Below, in pieces: positions 51,323 to 61,719 of a stretch of DNA of 64,000 nucleotides (position 1 is its first letter; each line of letters begins with the position of its first letter). The stretch covers positions 371,387 to 435,386 of the forward strand of contig NZ_QVFV01000002.1 of the NCBI RefSeq assembly GCF_004212215.1, given 5' to 3'. Made by a program: the position numbers and the translations under genes. This DNA comes from Leptolyngbya iicbica LK (GTDB lineage: Bacteria > Cyanobacteriota > Cyanobacteriia > Phormidesmidales > Phormidesmidaceae). The notes under the pieces are model-generated. The model worked only from the letters and a program-made list of their open reading frames with translations. It was not told the DNA's origin and made no database searches.

Positions 51323-53308
51323 ATGACCAGCGCTAAAACGCCCAGGGTTTCCTCTGACCAGAAAGCTAAAACTTTGAATTCTGAGTCAGATAGTCTTTTT
51401 CGCACCTATGTAGAAGCTGCTTCCGACATTGTTTACACCCTCGATCTGACGGGCAAATTTACTTTCGTCAACTCTTACGGGCTCAAGCTTATCGGCGCGC
51501 AGGATTATGACGAAGTCGTTGGTCATTCTTATCTGGAAATTGTGGCCCCAGAGTATCGGGGCAAGACATTTGAAGTCTTCGCGCAACTGCTGAAATCAGG
51601 CGAACTGCGCGACTATGAGTTTGCCGTGCTCACCAAAAGCGGCGATCGCGTTTTTATCGAAGTGAATGGTCGGTTGCTGTATCGCTCGGGGCGACTGGTG
51701 GGCGCTTTGGGCATTGGTCGCGATATTACCGAGCGCAAGCGCTTTGAAGCTCAACTCAAGATGTTTTCCAAAGCGCTGGATTCGGCTCACGACAGCGCCA
51801 TCATTTCAGACTTAAAGGGCAACATTCAATACGCGAACCTGGCCACTCAGCGGCTATTTAACTGGCCCGTTTCGCGCCTCACGGGGACGAATATCGCCAA
51901 TTTTTTCCCAAAATCTGATCAAGTTGACTGGATCTTGGATCAAGCTAACGGCCCCGGCTGGAGTGGGCAGATTGTCTGTCAGCGCTACGATGGGACTCCC
52001 TTCAGTGCGTTTATCTCCATTAGTCCGGTGTACGGCGAGGATAACCAAACGCTCACATCGGTCAGCATTATTTTGCGCGACATTACTCAGCAAGAGCGGA
52101 TTGAAGCCGAGCTGGCGGCAAAAAATCTGGAGCTGGCTCGGGCTAATCGGTTGAAATCTGAATTTTTAGCCAACATGTCCCACGAGTTGCGGACGCCGAT
52201 GACCTCGATTTTGGGCTTTTCGAAGCTGCTGAGTCAATTGGTGTATGGCGATCTCAATGAACGTCAGCAGCTTTATGTGGATCAGATTCATCAAAGTGGT
52301 GAGCATTTGCTGAGTTTGATCAACGAAGTGCTCGATCTCTCCAAGGTCGAAGCGGGACAGATGGATCTCAATATTTCTGAGATTCACCTGGGCAGCCTGT
52401 GCCATGACGTGGTCAAAATGGTCGAAACTCAGGCCGGTATGAAGGCGCTCAAGATTGAGTGTGAGGTGCCCGCTGATCTGCCCATGCTGGTGGCAGACGA
52501 GATTCGAGTGCGGCAAATGCTGCTGAATTTGCTCTCGAATGCCATCAAATTTACCCCTAAGGGCCGGGCGATCGGCATTCGGGTGAGCCAAGCAGCAGAG
52601 CAAATGCACCTCACCGTGTGGGATGAAGGTATCGGCATTTCTGAAGAGCAGTTATCGTCTCTCTTTCAGCCTTTCCAACAGCTCGAAAATCCGTTGTCGA
52701 AGCACTATGAGGGTACCGGACTGGGCCTTGCGCTCACCCAAAAACTGACGCGCCTGCATGGCGGTGATGTGACGGTTAAGTCGCGCCCTAATCAGGGCAG
52801 TGAGTTTACGCTAAACCTGCCGATTAACTGCCGCAACGCGACCTTGCGGGATGGACACCACGCTGTGCAAGAGGCAACTTTATCAGAGCAGGAGTTGTTG
52901 CAGCCGCCCATGCCGTCGACAGCACAACCGATTCTTGTAGTGGAAGATAATCCTAATAATGCGCTGCTGTTGCAGCACATGCTGACCCATTGGGGCTACC
53001 AGGTTTATCACTGTGCCAATGGTCAGGAGGCCCTCACCTGGCTCGAGGGGCATGACCCGGCTTTGGTCCTGATGGATGTGCAACTGCCGGGGCTCAGCGG
53101 CCTAGACCTGACGCAACAAATTCGTCAACAGCCCCAGTGGCAGGGGATTCCGATTGTGGCGACGACGGCGTTAGCGCAGCCCCAAGACCGCGATCGCTGT
53201 CTGGCAGCAGGGATGCAAGACTATCTGAGTAAGCCAATCAACCACGCTGAGTTGGTTTCGGTGTTGGCTAAATACACCTGCGGGCACGGAGAACAAAGGC
53301 TAAGGTAG
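51323..53308 (+). CDS. Hybrid sensor histidine kinase (PAS-PAS-HisKA-HATPase-receiver)
   Basis: A 661-residue soluble hybrid kinase. PAS1 (residues about 25-140) has IVYTLDLTGKFTFVNSYGLK and the tail IGRDITERKRFEAQL; PAS2 (about 145-265) ends with IILRDITQQERIEAEL. The phosphorylated His is in EFLANMSHELRTPMTSILGF near residue 286. The ATPase has NLLSNAIKF, DEGIGISEEQ and GTGLGLALTQ. The C-terminal receiver (residue 535 on) has VVEDNPNN, phospho-Asp in LVLMDVQLPG near 583 and Lys in DYLSKP. No haem or chromophore site is evident, so the signal is unknown. The Aat-like gene follows 31 bases later. Confidence 0.95.
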   Translation: MTSAKTPRVSSDQKAKTLNSESDSLFRTYVEAASDIVYTLDLTGKFTFVNSYGLKLIGAQDYDEVVGHSYLEIVAPEYRGKTFEVFAQLLKSGELRDYEFAVLTKSGDRVFIEVNGRLLYRSGRLVGALGIGRDITERKRFEAQLKMFSKALDSAHDSAIISDLKGNIQYANLATQRLFNWPVSRLTGTNIANFFPKSDQVDWILDQANGPGWSGQIVCQRYDGTPFSAFISISPVYGEDNQTLTSVSIILRDITQQERIEAELAAKNLELARANRLKSEFLANMSHELRTPMTSILGFSKLLSQLVYGDLNERQQLYVDQIHQSGEHLLSLINEVLDLSKVEAGQMDLNISEIHLGSLCHDVVKMVETQAGMKALKIECEVPADLPMLVADEIRVRQMLLNLLSNAIKFTPKGRAIGIRVSQAAEQMHLTVWDEGIGISEEQLSSLFQPFQQLENPLSKHYEGTGLGLALTQKLTRLHGGDVTVKSRPNQGSEFTLNLPINCRNATLRDGHHAVQEATLSEQELLQPPMPSTAQPILVVEDNPNNALLLQHMLTHWGYQVYHCANGQEALTWLEGHDPALVLMDVQLPGLSGLDLTQQIRQQPQWQGIPIVATTALAQPQDRDRCLAAGMQDYLSKPINHAELVSVLAKYTCGHGEQRLR

Positions 53309-54530: not shown

Positions 54531-55052
54531 CTAAATGGATTGGCATCGTTCTAACCGCAGCATGAGCGCGTCGAATAAGCTCGGATCGCCAAAGCCACCG
54601 CCGCGCCCGGTGCCAAAGCCCCCAATCAGCCAAGAGCGATACCAGGGCATTTCCCAAAACCAGAGGGCTGGTAAATGGCCCTGCGGGGCGTCTAGGGAAA
54701 AATTTAACCAGTGGTAAAAGTTGAAAAAGCCGATGGGTTGCCACAGATTCATCACCCACCCGGCCTGACGGCTAAATTCAAAGCTGGAGCGCTCAGCGGC
54801 TTCGCGATAAATGTGGAGTTGAGTGCTGAAACCAAAGCGACCGCTGCTGTAAAACAGCCAACGCTGGTCGAGTTGATGCAGAGTGGCGCAGGGAAAGTTG
54901 GCGATCGCGCTTTGATCGAGCCAGCCTGCATCGCGGCGATCGCTCACCGCCAGCATGATTTGGAAGGTTACCTCATCGGCGAGTTGCCAGTCAGCGTGGC
55001 TCAACAAGCTATCCAGCTCTTGCAAACCGTCTTGGATGTCGGTGGTCATCAT
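54531..55052 (-). CDS. Stand-alone GUN4-domain-like protein
   Basis: A 173-residue protein close in size to a single GUN4 domain. GUN4 features are LHQLDQRWLFYSSGRFGFST, followed by an IYREA helix, the loop GFFNFYHWLNFSL, then DAPQGHLPALWFW. Canonical Gun4 binds Mg-protoporphyrin and activates Mg-chelatase. Whether this paralogue binds tetrapyrrole is unknown; the C-terminus is unusually Gly-rich (FGTGRGGGFGD). It overlaps the longer GUN4 gene before it by 4 bases (ATGA), so the two are translationally coupled. Confidence 0.8.
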   Translation of the reverse strand: MMTTDIQDGLQELDSLLSHADWQLADEVTFQIMLAVSDRRDAGWLDQSAIANFPCATLHQLDQRWLFYSSGRFGFSTQLHIYREAAERSSFEFSRQAGWVMNLWQPIGFFNFYHWLNFSLDAPQGHLPALWFWEMPWYRSWLIGGFGTGRGGGFGDPSLFDALMLRLERCQSI

Positions 55053-56668
55053 GATGGCTCGTCACCTTCTTCCGCTGGGGGGGAGCTACTGCCAGATTTT
55101 TTGAGGTGGGGCAGGCAGTGTTCGATCACGTCATTGAAGATTTGGGGAATGATGTCTTCGCTGACAACGTAGTCACCTTCAAGACTGTTGGCGGCCCAGC
55201 GCCAGGTGGGCAAATGTCCCGGAGGGGCCTGGAGGTGAAACTGCAGATGGCGATAGGCTTTGCGGCGGACGAGGAGACTGACATTGCCGATACCGACACT
55301 TTCGATCCATTCGACGGCGGTCAAAAATTCGCCAGGTTGGCGATCGTGATCGGCATAGATGCGATGCTGCGCGGCAAAGCCAAACTTGTTTTGACTGTAG
55401 CGCGCCCATAGCTGATCAATTGTGTTCACATCGACGCAGTATTGACTCAAGCTCAGTAAGGTCTCAGCCGAGAGGGGACGCATGTCATGGCTCAGGGCTG
55501 ACAACAGCAGGCGTTCGGTTTCTTGATCCGCTGCTTCCCAATGGTTGAGCCACAGGAGTTGCCGCAGCCGGGTGTAATCCAGGCCCAGGGCAGAATCGAT
55601 GGGGCCATAGCGTTCATCGGTGGCCTCACGTTCGATCGCCCGCACCCGTTCACGATCGAGCTGCCAATTGCGGCGGGCTTGCTCTAAGCGGCCTCGGTCA
55701 AACTCGCTGGGGTAAGGGGAGCGGGCGATCGCCCCGGCAAATTCTCGTCGATACTCTTCTTCCCGCTGTTGTTGGAGGGCGAGCAGCTGTTGCGGCGACG
55801 GAGTTTCTGGCTGCTTAGGAGCGGTCTCTGGCGACTCCGCCGATTCATCGGCGGGGGGAGTAGGGTCTTCAGCCGGTTGGCGCTTCGCGATTTCTTCGAT
55901 GCTGATGGTGGCAATTTCATCGTCGTTGGCAGACAGGCCCATCGCTTCACAAAAGCGGGCCAGTTCAGTTTGCGTATGGGCGCTCAAAGGCATCTGGCGA
56001 TCGAGCTCGTAGCAGAGAAGTTCGCGATAGCGATCGAGCTTGGTTTGTCGATCGCGGTAGGGGCCGAGGGCATCGAGTTTGATCTGTTCGGCAGTTGCGG
56101 GATCGAGCTGCAATTGCTGCCGCAGCAGTTCCAGATTTTCCTCTTCAATCGGGGAGAATTCGCCGTCATGCCGGGCATAAAGAGCGGCTCGGGCCTGGAA
56201 CAGTTGCCGATCTGGCAACAGCATATTGACGGCGGGCAAGAGACTCAAGACGACTTCACTAGAGGCGGTTTCAACTTGAGTGGTGACGTGCTCGATGGTG
56301 CAAGTCAGGCGAATGGTGACGTGGTCGACCGGCAGCAAGTCACTCACGCCTAAGTCTTCTAGACAAGTGCTGATGCATTCCAGCCAGGTGGCGACGCGCT
56401 CGGGCTCAGGCAGACGAATGTCGAGACCGTACAGGGTGTCCCCGTCTTGGGAAATTCGCAAGGCTTTAATGCGCTCGCCGGGGCTCATGTCATATTGCGG
56501 CAAGGCACGCCAAAATTCCTGCACGGCCCGATCGCGCTCCACCATATTCAGCGAGCTGTCAATGACTCGTAAAAGTATGCGAGCTGGTCGGACGCTCTCC
56601 ACCTGGGGGTCACTCCTCTCTGTGTGATCACGCTTGGACTGCACTAAGGATAATGCTTGCGATCGCAT
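55049..56668 (-). CDS. Large GUN4-domain protein with helical N-terminal region
   Basis: A 539-residue protein whose C-terminal 160 residues (about 364-525) are a GUN4 domain: DYTRLRQLLWLNHWEAADQE, VNTIDQLWARYSQNKFGFAA, QHRIYADHD and APPGHLPTWRWAANSL. The N-terminal 200 residues begin with a compact domain (ILLRVIDSSLNMVERDRAV, then VTIRLTCTIEHVTTQVETAS) that I do not recognise. An acidic, Pro/Glu/Ser-rich linker (about 250-290) and a charged helical segment follow. Such long GUN4 fusions in cyanobacteria may be sensors rather than chlorophyll-synthesis factors; this is inference. It is transcribed before, and overlaps, the small GUN4 gene. Confidence 0.85.
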   Translation of the reverse strand: MRSQALSLVQSKRDHTERSDPQVESVRPARILLRVIDSSLNMVERDRAVQEFWRALPQYDMSPGERIKALRISQDGDTLYGLDIRLPEPERVATWLECISTCLEDLGVSDLLPVDHVTIRLTCTIEHVTTQVETASSEVVLSLLPAVNMLLPDRQLFQARAALYARHDGEFSPIEEENLELLRQQLQLDPATAEQIKLDALGPYRDRQTKLDRYRELLCYELDRQMPLSAHTQTELARFCEAMGLSANDDEIATISIEEIAKRQPAEDPTPPADESAESPETAPKQPETPSPQQLLALQQQREEEYRREFAGAIARSPYPSEFDRGRLEQARRNWQLDRERVRAIEREATDERYGPIDSALGLDYTRLRQLLWLNHWEAADQETERLLLSALSHDMRPLSAETLLSLSQYCVDVNTIDQLWARYSQNKFGFAAQHRIYADHDRQPGEFLTAVEWIESVGIGNVSLLVRRKAYRHLQFHLQAPPGHLPTWRWAANSLEGDYVVSEDIIPQIFNDVIEHCLPHLKKSGSSSPPAEEGDEPS

Positions 56669-57104: not shown

Positions 57105-60077
57105 ATGACGGTAACTTCTCAGTCCCTGCAACGAATTCTCTCGGGGGTGGCGCCCTTTGACCAATTGCCGGGGGCAGCGATCGCGAACTTGGCCCAGAGC
57201 GGCCAACTCTTGCGGTATCGCATTGGCCAACCGATTGTGCGACCCGAGGCGTTGCCGCAGCTAGTGCTGATCACCGATGGGCAAGCACGACTCCTGGGCG
57301 AAGATCCCCGCACTGACAAGCCCGCGACATTGCAGCTCCTGGGGCGGGGCTCCCTGTTGGGCATTGTGGGACTGTTACGGGGCCAGCCCTGTGAGACGGC
57401 GATCGCCTCTTCAGAGGTAGTGGGCTGTCAGTTTTCTATGGCGGTCTTTCAGCAAACGCTGGATCAATATCCCGAGTTTGCCACGGCCATTCGCGAGCAG
57501 CTGTATTTAGCTGAAGTCTTTGACCTCTTGGCGCGCCAGATCAACGATCAAGCTGAGGACGTGGGCGACTTGGCCCAGTTGTCCAAGCAGGCTCAGCAGG
57601 CGGGCGTGGTGCACTATTTGCCCTATGGCAAGCGACCGCTAAACCTGCCTCAACAGGAAAATTACACCTGGTTTGTCAGCAGCGGCACCATCATCAACCA
57701 ACCGATGGGCAGCCAGCTCAATTTAGAGTGGGCGGGCAATGAGTTAGACGTGATCAGTCCTCAGGGGGCGCGACTGGTCGGACTCCCCGATATCCCCGTG
57801 TTGTCGCCAGCGGCTCTGCCGCCAGGGACTGAGGCGGCGGGCGGCGTGAGTGCAGCTGAGCCCGCGGCGATTCCCTACGCGCCGGAGCATTTGCCGGAGC
57901 CGGAACCAGAGACCTCCGACGCGGCGGCAGAATATCCCTTTGTGCGGGGCCGGGGCGAAATCGAAGGCATGTTGGCCTGCATGGAGATGGTGAGCCAGTA
58001 CTTTGGCATGCCCTTTCGCCGGGACATCATTCGTCGGATTTTGACCAATCAGCGCGATCGCTTGGGTCAACTCTCCCTGCCCCTGGCGGGCAAAGTAGCG
58101 GAATTTATGGGCCTCCGCACCCAGATGACCCAGGTGCCGGTCAGCGCCATCAGCCGCCTGCCCACCCCCGCGCTGATTAGCTGGGAAGAGGGCTACGCCA
58201 TTCTGTATGAAACCAATGCCAAGGCCCGCGTGCTGGCGGTACCCGACTTGGGGATCATTCAGCGATCGCCCATCGAGTTTGCCGAAACCTGGGGCGACGA
58301 AGGCGAAGTCGTCCTCTTAGAAAAAACCCGCGAAACGCCCCAAGAGCGCTTTGGCCTGAACTGGTTTATCCCCTCGTTGAAAAAGTATCGCTGGGTACTG
58401 GTGGAGGTGCTCATTGCCTCCTTCTTTGTGCAGCTCTTCGGCCTGGCGAATCCGTTGATGGTGCAGGTCATTATCGACAAGGTAATCGTGCAAAACAGCA
58501 CCGATACCCTGCAAGTGCTCGGCGTCTTTTTGCTGGTGATTGCCGTCTTTGAGGCGGTGCTCACGGCCCTGCGAACGTATCTGTTTGTGGATACGACCAA
58601 CCGCATTGACATGGCGCTGGGCTCCGAAATCATTGATCACCTGCTGCGACTGCCCCTGCGTTACTTTGACAAACGCCCCGTCGGGGAATTGTCCAGTCGG
58701 GTCAACGAGCTGGAGAATATCCGCAAGTTTTTGACGGGCACGGCGCTGACAGTGGTGCTGGATGCCGTGTTCTCGGTGCTGTACATCGTCGTTATGTTCA
58801 TCTACAGCTGGCTGCTGACTCTGGTGGCGCTGGCGACAATTCCCCTGTTTGTCTTTTTGACGGTGTTGGTCGCCCCCATTGTGCGCAAGCAATTGCGGGT
58901 GAAGGCCGAGCGCAATGCCTCGACCCAGTCCTTTTTGGTGGAAGCGCTGTCAGGCATTCAAACCGTGAAGGCGCAAAATATCGAGTTGCGCACCCGTTGG
59001 CAATGGCAAGAGCGCTACGCCAGCTACGTCAGCGCCGGTTTCAACACGGTGCTGACCTCGACCACTGCCGGAGCCGCCAGCAACTTCTTGAACAAGTTGT
59101 CGGCGCTGCTGGTGCTCTGGGTCGGGGCATATCTGGTGCTGCAAGGGGAACTGAGCCTGGGTCAGCTGATCGCCTTCCGGATTATTTCGGGCTATGTGAC
59201 TGCGCCGATTTTGCGCCTGGCTCAGCTCTGGCAAAACTTCCAAGAGACGGCCCTGTCCTTGGAACGCTTGAGCGACATTTTGGATCATCCCTGCGAGGCC
59301 GAAGACCAGGGTCGCAACCAGATTCAGATGCCGGATATTCAGGGGCAGGTCACCTACGAAAATGTGGCATTTCGGTTTGCGCCGTCTGGCCCCTTGCAGT
59401 TGGTCAACATTAATTTGGAGTTTCCGGCAGGGCAGTTTGTCGGCATTGTGGGCCAAAGCGGTTCCGGCAAAAGTACCTTGATGAAGCTGCTGCCGCGCCT
59501 GTATGAAGTCGAATCGGGTCGCATTCTGATCGACAAGTACGATATCGGCAAGGTGGAGTTGTATTCCCTGCGGCAACAGGTGGGCATCGTGCCCCAAGAC
59601 AGCCTCTTGTTTGAGGGCAGCATTCAAGAAAATATCTCGCTCACCCGCCCCGAGGCGGACGACGAGGCCATCATCATGGCGGCCCGGATTGCGGGAGCCC
59701 ACGACTTTATTATGGATTTGCCGTTGGGCTACAACACCCGCGTGGGTGAACGGGGCGCGTCGTTGTCGGGGGGGCAGCGCCAGCGCATTGCGATCGCCCG
59801 CACGATTCTCCACAATCCCCGGCTGTTGATTTTGGACGAAGCCACCAGCGCCCTCGACTACGACACTGAAAAGCAGGTGTGTAACAACCTGAAAACTTGG
59901 GCTGAGGACCGCACGGTGTTTTTCATTACCCACCGTTTAAGCACCATTCAGGACTCTGACACGATTTTGGTGATGGATCGCGGTGCGGCGGTCGAGCAGG
60001 GTACCCACGAAGAACTGATGGCGCTGCGGGGACGTTATTACACCTTGTATCAACAACAGATTCACACCCCTGAATAG
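57105..60077 (+). CDS. Type I secretion ABC transporter with cyclic-nucleotide-binding-like and C39-like domains
   Basis: A 990-residue ABC exporter of the HlyB/peptidase-containing group. In order: a cyclic-nucleotide-binding-like domain (residues about 20-130), a linker, a C39-like domain (about 282-415), a six-helix membrane domain (about 425-720) and an ATPase. Walker A GQSGSGKST is near 783, LSGGQRQR near 887, Walker B LLILDEATSALD near 907. In the C39-like domain the catalytic Cys position reads EIEGMLACMEM, so the DCG motif is lost; it is probably a substrate-docking rather than a cleaving domain, as in HlyB. The HlyD-type adaptor follows 76 bases later. Its secreted cargo is not in the window. 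Confidence 0.92.
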   Translation: MTVTSQSLQRILSGVAPFDQLPGAAIANLAQSGQLLRYRIGQPIVRPEALPQLVLITDGQARLLGEDPRTDKPATLQLLGRGSLLGIVGLLRGQPCETAIASSEVVGCQFSMAVFQQTLDQYPEFATAIREQLYLAEVFDLLARQINDQAEDVGDLAQLSKQAQQAGVVHYLPYGKRPLNLPQQENYTWFVSSGTIINQPMGSQLNLEWAGNELDVISPQGARLVGLPDIPVLSPAALPPGTEAAGGVSAAEPAAIPYAPEHLPEPEPETSDAAAEYPFVRGRGEIEGMLACMEMVSQYFGMPFRRDIIRRILTNQRDRLGQLSLPLAGKVAEFMGLRTQMTQVPVSAISRLPTPALISWEEGYAILYETNAKARVLAVPDLGIIQRSPIEFAETWGDEGEVVLLEKTRETPQERFGLNWFIPSLKKYRWVLVEVLIASFFVQLFGLANPLMVQVIIDKVIVQNSTDTLQVLGVFLLVIAVFEAVLTALRTYLFVDTTNRIDMALGSEIIDHLLRLPLRYFDKRPVGELSSRVNELENIRKFLTGTALTVVLDAVFSVLYIVVMFIYSWLLTLVALATIPLFVFLTVLVAPIVRKQLRVKAERNASTQSFLVEALSGIQTVKAQNIELRTRWQWQERYASYVSAGFNTVLTSTTAGAASNFLNKLSALLVLWVGAYLVLQGELSLGQLIAFRIISGYVTAPILRLAQLWQNFQETALSLERLSDILDHPCEAEDQGRNQIQMPDIQGQVTYENVAFRFAPSGPLQLVNINLEFPAGQFVGIVGQSGSGKSTLMKLLPRLYEVESGRILIDKYDIGKVELYSLRQQVGIVPQDSLLFEGSIQENISLTRPEADDEAIIMAARIAGAHDFIMDLPLGYNTRVGERGASLSGGQRQRIAIARTILHNPRLLILDEATSALDYDTEKQVCNNLKTWAEDRTVFFITHRLSTIQDSDTILVMDRGAAVEQGTHEELMALRGRYYTLYQQQIHTPE

Positions 60078-60153
60078 GCCTTTAAAACGCTAGCCTGATT
60101 AGCGGCACCTGCTGCCGCGCTTGTTTTCGCTCAGATTCCTAAGAGGCTGAACC

Positions 60154-61719
60154 ATGACTTCCGGATCGCACGTGACACCCAACGGCACTCTCCAGAATGG
60201 GCACAATGGCAACGGTAACGGCAATGGACATATGCCGCCGACTCCGCCTTCGGCTCCCCCCACTCCGCCGACTTCGGGGTTTGAGCGATCGGTCATCTTG
60301 CGACAGTCGCCTCGCTGGGCGCGCTATGTCGTGTGGGGCATTGTAGCGGTGAGCGTGAGTACCGTGGCCTGGGCCTGTCTGGCCAAAATTGAGGAGGCGA
60401 TTCCGGCCCAGGGCAAGCTAGAGCCGGAAGGGGTCGTGCAACCCGTGCAGGCTCCTGTCGGTGGAGTGGTGGCCGAGATTCACGTCAATGAAGGGGAGTC
60501 AGTAGAGCAGGGTACGGTATTGGTCACCCTCGACCCCAAGGCGACCCGCGCCCAGCTGGAAGCCTTGCAGGATATTCGATCGCGTCTCCGCGAAGAAAAT
60601 CAGTATTACCGTTCTCAGCTCAGCGCCGCACCGGAGCTAGAGGGCGCGCCGGTCACCGTTTCCCCCGAGATCGCCCGCCTGACCAGTAACCGCGTGGCCC
60701 TAGTGGAAGAGAACGAACTGTATCGCGCCATTTTGCGGGGCGACTTGAATGCGGCCAACCTATCTCCCCGGCAGCGGGAACGAGTGGCAACGACCCTGGG
60801 GGGGCTGGATTCGCAAATTGCCATTAATCAGCTTGAAGTTGAGCAGCTGAATAAACAGCTTGACCAGGTTTCTACGCAATTGGCGAATGCCGTGCAGTCG
60901 CTCTCAGTGGAACAGGAAATTTATGACCGTATTGAACCCTTGGTGGCTCAAGGGGGCATTTCGGAACTGCAAGGATTGCGACAGCAGCAAGAGGTGAATA
61001 ATCGCGAAACTGAGGTGAATAGTCTGCGCGAAGAACAGCAGCGACTAATGTTAGCGATCGACCAGGCCCAAGAAGAGCTGCTGCGCACCCAAGTCGTGTC
61101 GAATGAAGACCTGCTGGAACGCATTGCGGCCAACGATAACCAAATCGCCAACATCGACAGCCAACTCACTAAAGTGGTGGTGGATAACGAAAAGCAGCTC
61201 GAGGAAATTGGCGGACAAATTAGCCAGCTCGAGTTTGCCCTAGAGAATCAGGAACTGCGGGCACCTCTGGACGGGCAGGTCTTTAACCTGAGGGCAAACC
61301 AACCGGGTTATGTAGCCAATGCCACCGAGCCAATTCTGGAAATTGTGCCCAATGACACACTGGTGGCGCGGGTCTTCATCACGAATCGCGACATTGGCTT
61401 TGTGACTCAGCGATTTCAGGATTCCGAAGAGCCGCTGATGGTGGATGTGCGCATCGATTCGTTCCCCTTTAGCGAGTTTGGCGATGTCGAAGGCGAAATT
61501 GTCCACATTGGCTCTGATGCGTTGCCCCCCGACGATGTGAATCCCTACTATCGATTCCCGGCGGAGATCGAGCTGCAAGATCAACTGTTGGGCGAAGCGC
61601 TGCCGCTGCAATCGGGCATGTCGGTGACGGCGAATATCAAGCTGCGCAAACGCCGCGTGATTACGATCCTCAGCGATCTCTTTGTACGGAAAATCGACAG
61701 CCTGCGTTCAGGCGGATAG
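60154..61719 (+). CDS. HlyD family periplasmic adaptor protein
   Basis: A 521-residue membrane-fusion protein of type I secretion. A cytoplasmic Asn/Gly/Pro-rich N-terminus is followed by one membrane span (about 57-77), the lipoyl half-motif PVQAPVGGVVAEIHVNEGES, a long coiled-coil hairpin (about 130-360), the second lipoyl half (ELRAPLDGQVFNL) and a beta barrel. It links the transporter at 57105 to an outer-membrane TolC protein, which is not encoded nearby. The low-complexity start PPTPPSAPPTPPTSG is notable. The two genes form an operon. Confidence 0.95.
   Translation: MTSGSHVTPNGTLQNGHNGNGNGNGHMPPTPPSAPPTPPTSGFERSVILRQSPRWARYVVWGIVAVSVSTVAWACLAKIEEAIPAQGKLEPEGVVQPVQAPVGGVVAEIHVNEGESVEQGTVLVTLDPKATRAQLEALQDIRSRLREENQYYRSQLSAAPELEGAPVTVSPEIARLTSNRVALVEENELYRAILRGDLNAANLSPRQRERVATTLGGLDSQIAINQLEVEQLNKQLDQVSTQLANAVQSLSVEQEIYDRIEPLVAQGGISELQGLRQQQEVNNRETEVNSLREEQQRLMLAIDQAQEELLRTQVVSNEDLLERIAANDNQIANIDSQLTKVVVDNEKQLEEIGGQISQLEFALENQELRAPLDGQVFNLRANQPGYVANATEPILEIVPNDTLVARVFITNRDIGFVTQRFQDSEEPLMVDVRIDSFPFSEFGDVEGEIVHIGSDALPPDDVNPYYRFPAEIELQDQLLGEALPLQSGMSVTANIKLRKRRVITILSDLFVRKIDSLRSGG

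Follow-up and report, generated by a model that had tools for sequence, protein, structure and literature searches.

Published accounts of cyanobacterial conflict systems count GUN4 among their domains (PMC7159879), and the sections devoted to it describe fusions to kinases, caspases, trypsin and TIR domains, proposing GUN4 as a tetrapyrrole sensor in such systems (PMC7159879, PMC8195603); the corresponding part of a further paper places it in 29 orthocaspases (PMC8283722). Cyanobacterial GUN4 paralogs are also predicted to report the photosynthetic state to conflict systems (section concerned of PMC7159879), a prediction of which we found no test in the literature searched. The other closely related system is the pairing of an adaptor of the EACC1 (Effector Associated Constant Component 1) type with a caspase, for which the section on these pairs names actinobacteria and proteobacteria (PMC7159879). 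In full-text searches covering the main texts of mostly open-access papers, we recognized no account of the gene pair described below or of a cyanobacterial EACC1-like gene beside caspases.

The window, by which we mean the whole 64,000-nucleotide stretch of Leptolyngbya iicbica LK DNA that was analysed, contains two overlapping genes, A and B, whose products both carry a GUN4 domain and most likely act as a sensor-adaptor within a network for cell death or defence. Their features are as follows:

55049..56668, minus strand: gene A, 539 aa, with EACC1-like domain, helical module and GUN4
56219..56587, minus strand: EACC1-like alpha/beta domain of A, residues ~28-150 (~125 residues), predicted b-a-b-b-a-b-b from the AF2 model and a profile match
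55880..56218, minus strand: helical module of A, residues ~151-263, recurring behind caspase and Ser/Thr-kinase domains
55607..55795, minus strand: third helical unit of A, residues ~292-354, after a low-confidence linker
55202..55591, minus strand: GUN4 domain of A, residues 360-489, Pfam PF05419 at 81.7 bits
55196..55207, minus strand: TWRW behind GHLP in A, replacing the bilin motif LxNxLR; W489, R490 and W491 in 28/28
55049..55052, minus strand: ATGA overlap of the A stop and the B start, from the ORF coordinates
54531..55052, minus strand: gene B, 173 aa, a stand-alone GUN4 paralog
54648-55025, minus strand: GUN4 domain of B, residues 10-135, Pfam 94.1 bits
54654..54668, minus strand: ALWFW behind GHLP in B, with Trp at the Asn211 position in 32/32

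These open reading frames, with their lengths and minus-strand coordinates, confirm what the first-pass annotation had described: a 539-residue protein with a C-terminal GUN4 domain overlapping a 173-residue GUN4 protein by 4 bases. The start of A is ambiguous, lying either at the ATG at 56668 (539 aa) or at the GTG of codon 23 at 56602 (517 aa), the position at which the nearest relative's ORF starts. Both proteins pass the Pfam GUN4 model comfortably (81.7 bits for A and 94.1 for B against a cut-off of 29.2), and the predicted model of B (mean pLDDT 73) superposes on the GUN4 structure 1z3x with Z 16.9 and 2.3 Å over 141 residues, the solved GUN4 structures giving Z 15.4-16.9 across 8 entries. 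The genes are real and under strong purifying selection: in a comparison of the window with Halomicronema sp. CCY15110, the closest named relative among the matches (A 86-87%, B 98%), A has a dN/dS of 0.077/0.80 and B one of 0.016/0.53.

In a homology search scored by the best E-value per genome, 42 of the family's 63 genomes have both A and B and the remaining 21 have neither gene, with presence set by a clear gap in E-values for A (1.5e-50 or better, then 1.6e-18) as for B (1e-29 or better, then 2.4e-21). Among 34 named loci, two of them cut by contig ends, the genes are adjacent and on the same strand in all 32 where both are complete, at a spacing of -79 to +52 nt across named loci (measured from longest-ORF starts). 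This co-inheritance argues strongly that A and B are functional partners. Close spacing is a conserved feature of the pair; the translational coupling read from the ATGA overlap is not, the exact 4-base overlap being present in 5 of 33 loci, the window counted. The genes flanking the pair vary between genera, and over 35 loci we found no effector gene conserved beside it and no caspase among the conserved neighbours; what lies directly 3' of A is B, not a caspase gene. Conserved neighbours were dropped as a functional clue, since the ABC transporter and HlyD-type genes upstream of the pair recur in only 5 of 35 loci, the window among them. In the window, the divergent ABC transporter gene and the HlyD-type gene occupy 57105-61719 (names assigned by eye), and a hybrid sensor kinase of PAS-PAS-HisKA-HATPase-receiver architecture is encoded near the pair at 51323-53308. 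A third gene, C (353-398 aa), which is A-like but lacks GUN4 (e.g., L037:113-1171, L036:124-1197), lies upstream of A in Nodosilinea and its kin, at 15 of the 34 named loci; its N-terminus is assigned via A and not directly, because stand-alone EACC1-like proteins (see below) match C proteins at a probability of only 2.6. Among the matches listed from 388 class genomes searched, the whole first-330-residue region of A is confined to this family.

The host genome (5.7 Mb, 16 contigs) encodes ten GUN4 domains, each above the Pfam cut-off. One belongs to a canonical gun4 located elsewhere (locus L001; GUN4_N + GUN4, 208.6 bits, LxNxLR present), a point that the first-pass annotation had asked to have checked, so that A and B are paralogs and not the chelatase factor; Pfam and a motif scan find neither GUN4_N nor LxNxLR in either of them. 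Of the seven others, two occur with TIR and two with a caspase, one of the latter carrying FGE-sulfatase as well; a fifth is accompanied by an FGE-sulfatase piece, and the last two have no other Pfam domain above cut-off. In a tree with 17 rows each, the GUN4 domains of A and those of B each fall into a clade of their own (support 100/99 and 99/99), and a recent tandem duplication was therefore rejected. Elsewhere, L009:892-2085 encodes a GUN4 protein that starts with an apparent signal peptide (by eye), which would place GUN4 outside the cytoplasm. In a genome of another family, tandem GUN4 genes (L226:243-863 and 925-1704) lie near an EACC1-like-CHAT gene, an independent case of paired GUN4 genes close to one for an EACC1-like protein. 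PADLOC also reports PD-T4-6, a defence kinase; the match is limited to model positions 286-448 of 450, the GUN4-like end, with the front part absent, and we rejected it as evidence of defence. The last ~140 positions of this model match GUN4 in 5 of 5 GUN4 proteins scanned, and automatic PD-T4-6 calls in cyanobacteria may be wrong.

The first 350 residues of A receive no name from Pfam, NCBIfam or PADLOC, and no enzyme domain was found in the N-terminus: Peptidase C14 is not among the Pfam families listed for 28 A proteins, and a caspase profile gave no match to the same proteins better than E 1.3. An AF2 model (mean pLDDT 84.4, pTM 0.49) predicts a b-a-b-b-a-b-b arrangement followed by helical hairpins. 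Foldseek with this model returned no significant solved structure and nothing under E 0.048, and a second structural comparison, with Z up to 9.5, was set aside, its hits being scattered over ferredoxin-like and unrelated folds near background. A search with the alpha/beta domain alone gives matches in 101 of 376 class genomes; beyond the family, most of these are frames of ~125-170 aa. A profile of 48 such stand-alone proteins recovers the A proteins, the best of them at E 1e-9 against 5.5 for the best shuffled decoy, and hhalign aligns the A domain to them at probability 98.2 and E 3e-14 over 119 columns; judged by these non-circular profile tests, the domain is homologous to the stand-alone proteins. 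The commonest Pfam match of the latter is EACC1 (PF19953), found in 20 of the 48 at a lax E of 10 (best 1.5e-5), any other Pfam family matching at most 2 of 48; when ten were scanned singly at E 0.1, three matched EACC1 and one passed (25.4 versus 23.6 bits), its match spanning positions 3-105 of 107. The Pfam families listed for A and 27 relatives do not include EACC1, and a direct EACC1 search of 19 relatives gave none above cut-off. On these profile matches the N-terminal domain of A appears to be related to EACC1 via the stand-alone proteins. We call it EACC1-like because the lone membrane-spanning helix, bearing a patch of small residues, that is described for EACC1 has no counterpart in A: the 19-residue hydropathy maximum in 18 A domains is 1.41, with none at or above 1.6, a value reached by 1 of 48 stand-alone proteins. 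In the A model, the counterpart of the Gly-rich hydrophobic part of the stand-alone relatives forms one strand and one helix within a soluble fold, an arrangement suggesting that not every domain of this kind has a membrane helix. In eight proteins outside the family, the helical module stands behind C14 in five, a kinase in two and neither in one. The idea that this N-terminal region might be an output domain is accordingly not borne out; the profile searches and the census that follows make of it an EACC1-like adaptor domain with a helical module. In one caspase protein (L151:1698-3152) the module weakly matches Pfam Tic110, a chloroplast envelope protein, at E 0.021, below cut-off.

Across 60 family genomes we found 49 stand-alone EACC1-like matches (frames <200 aa). 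In 36 of these places a caspase ORF on the same strand starts no more than 200 nt 3' of the adaptor gene (a count perhaps low by one, as Pfam finds a caspase at L285, one of the six places with none). Thirty of these 36 caspases carry the helical module and nine carry GUN4 in the same ORF, the host genome included. For the other 13 genes, the caspase lies further downstream in five and was not found within the stretch examined in six, one sits at a contig end and one adaptor ORF was not re-found. A wider set, selected for carrying the domain, has a caspase partner at 61 of 70 loci, which is not a rate, the loci having been hand-picked, many for a helical-module or GUN4 match on the same contig; of its nine loci with no caspase in reach, three have one 0.4-1.2 kb downstream, one is at a contig end, one is a CHAT fusion and in four none was found. 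The caspase and helical profiles were built partly from proteins of the same loci, and Pfam confirms C14 in 11 of 11 caspase partners scanned. C14 caspases as such occur in 59 of the 60 family genomes searched. The host genome has one of these loci (L233), a 129-aa adaptor followed by a caspase-helical-GUN4-FGE gene; Pfam gives the adaptor no name, and it matches the stand-alone profile at E 3e-23. In other genomes EACC1-like domains are fused to TIR (L235-L238; Pfam confirms 2 of 2 scanned, L237 and L238 being assigned by eye) and to CHAT (L234 and L239; 2 of 2 scanned confirmed by Pfam). EACC1-type adaptor genes of ~125 aa directly 5' of caspase-helical-variable genes (L193-L232, L250-L288 and others) are a common two-gene arrangement in cyanobacteria.

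Against this background, we posit with moderate confidence that A is a caspase-free, fused derivative of the cyanobacterial two-gene caspase system, with B as its partner in a sensor-adaptor. In that two-gene system, the first gene encodes a small EACC1-like adaptor and the second a caspase joined to the helical module, its C-terminus being variable and sometimes GUN4; A has the adaptor, the helical module and GUN4 and would have lost the protease, and B is a second, long-separate GUN4 lineage that would work with A. The two GUN4 domains are predicted to form a ligand-responsive sensor, perhaps for an altered tetrapyrrole, whose binding would lead the EACC1-like and helical parts of A to dock on caspases, TIR and CHAT proteins with the same modules, thereby promoting or restraining a cell-death or defence response. 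The adaptor-helical-GUN4 order of A is that of the two-gene caspase-GUN4 system minus the caspase, and the simplest reading is a protease-free sensor-adaptor of the same signalling network. We favour descent from the two-gene system; less probably, A was fused from separate parts without a caspase ancestor.

The GUN4 pockets bear on what the pair might sense. LxNxLR, with Asn211 of Synechocystis, marks the bilin-binding GUN4 orthologs and is lost in paralogs, and a change of the motif Asn in Chlamydomonas GUN4 abolishes the binding of bilin but not of porphyrin, according to the parts of PMC10156173 that treat the motif; AtF191 and AtR211, the counterparts of SynPhe196 and SynArg214, are described as important for porphyrin binding in the section concerned of PMC8967248. 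When residues are mapped to Synechocystis Gun4 by anchoring on the shared GHLP, the motif is found in none of 28 A and none of 32 B proteins, the Asn211 position being occupied by Arg in 28/28 A and Trp in 32/32 B. The Phe196 position is Leu in 28/28 A and 30/32 B on an ungapped count, and invariant in a gapped alignment of B; at Arg214, A has Ala, Ser or Cys and B has Arg in 8, Lys in 5 and another residue in 19 of 32. By alignment, then, the known bilin-binding residues are swapped in A and B for other, family-specific invariant residues. The invariance of these replacements suggests pockets for a different or altered ligand and not pockets in decay. That the pair is a heteromeric tetrapyrrole sensor, as the first-pass annotation had suggested, tuning pigment metabolism, with the front part of A merely oligomerizing, would agree with the co-inheritance of the two GUN4 domains, the GUN4 fold retained in the predicted model of B and the sparing of porphyrin binding on loss of the motif Asn (Chlamydomonas GUN4; passage in PMC10156173). 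We regard it as unlikely, given that the bilin motif is missing throughout, that the Phe196 position is so consistently replaced, that Arg214 is absent in A and kept in only 8 of 32 B, and that the front part of A keeps the company of caspases, TIR and CHAT. Judged by its modules, the pair would more plausibly couple a pigment-type sensor to signalling in cell death or defence than to the making of chlorophyll.

Within the sensor-adaptor reading, we offer as a tentative and rather speculative extension that A-B is a protease-free switch, comparable to animal FLIP and adaptors, in which the re-tooled GUN4 pocket would gate the firing of caspase, TIR or CHAT executioners of the same cyanobacterium by another pigment or a stress metabolite; if true, the state of photosynthesis would bear on programmed cell death or on defence against phages. 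A FLIP-like decoy, in which A vies with the stand-alone EACC1-like adaptor over binding the caspase gene product and so keeps the caspase in check, would suit a protein with adaptor and helical module but no protease in a genome that has an EACC1-like gene beside a caspase-helical-GUN4-FGE gene (L233); it is quite improbable, as a stand-alone EACC1-like gene was not detected in 18 of 40 A-bearing genomes examined, some of them assemblies of 6 to 10 contigs, and for the same reason A-B appears independent of the stand-alone system. That one or both proteins are vestigial paralogs with no definite role fits the varying A-B spacing and the restriction of full-length A, among the matches listed, to one family, and is made highly implausible by strong purifying selection, 42/42 co-occurrence and invariant pocket residues.

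The pair offers a small, soluble test system: two proteins in which no enzyme was detected, an adaptor domain assigned here for the first time, pocket residues whose invariance makes them targets for mutation, and named candidate partners. Of the described systems, the EACC1-caspase two-gene conflict system (Kaur et al. 2020, System 4) resembles A in its EACC1-related adaptor, encoded 5' of a caspase gene with a variable C-terminus as in the stand-alone relatives of A; unlike it, A has no caspase and no transmembrane helix, is fused in cis and has B as partner, and its host is a cyanobacterium, whereas the relevant section of that paper names actinobacteria and, sporadically, proteobacteria. 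The cyanobacterial caspase-GUN4 and TIR-GUN4 proteins share with A-B a GUN4 domain devoid of the bilin motif, the caspase-GUN4 proteins also sharing the helical module with A; A differs from both in that no enzymatic domain was found in it and in that every locus examined has a GUN4 partner gene next to it. Canonical Gun4 (Synechocystis sll0558) has the GUN4 fold in common with A and B, which lack its GUN4_N and LxNxLR. The GUN4 paralogs of the sll1380 type (Rockwell and Lagarias 2023) are likewise without Asn211, and A-B stands apart from them as a two-gene unit with an EACC1-like fusion.
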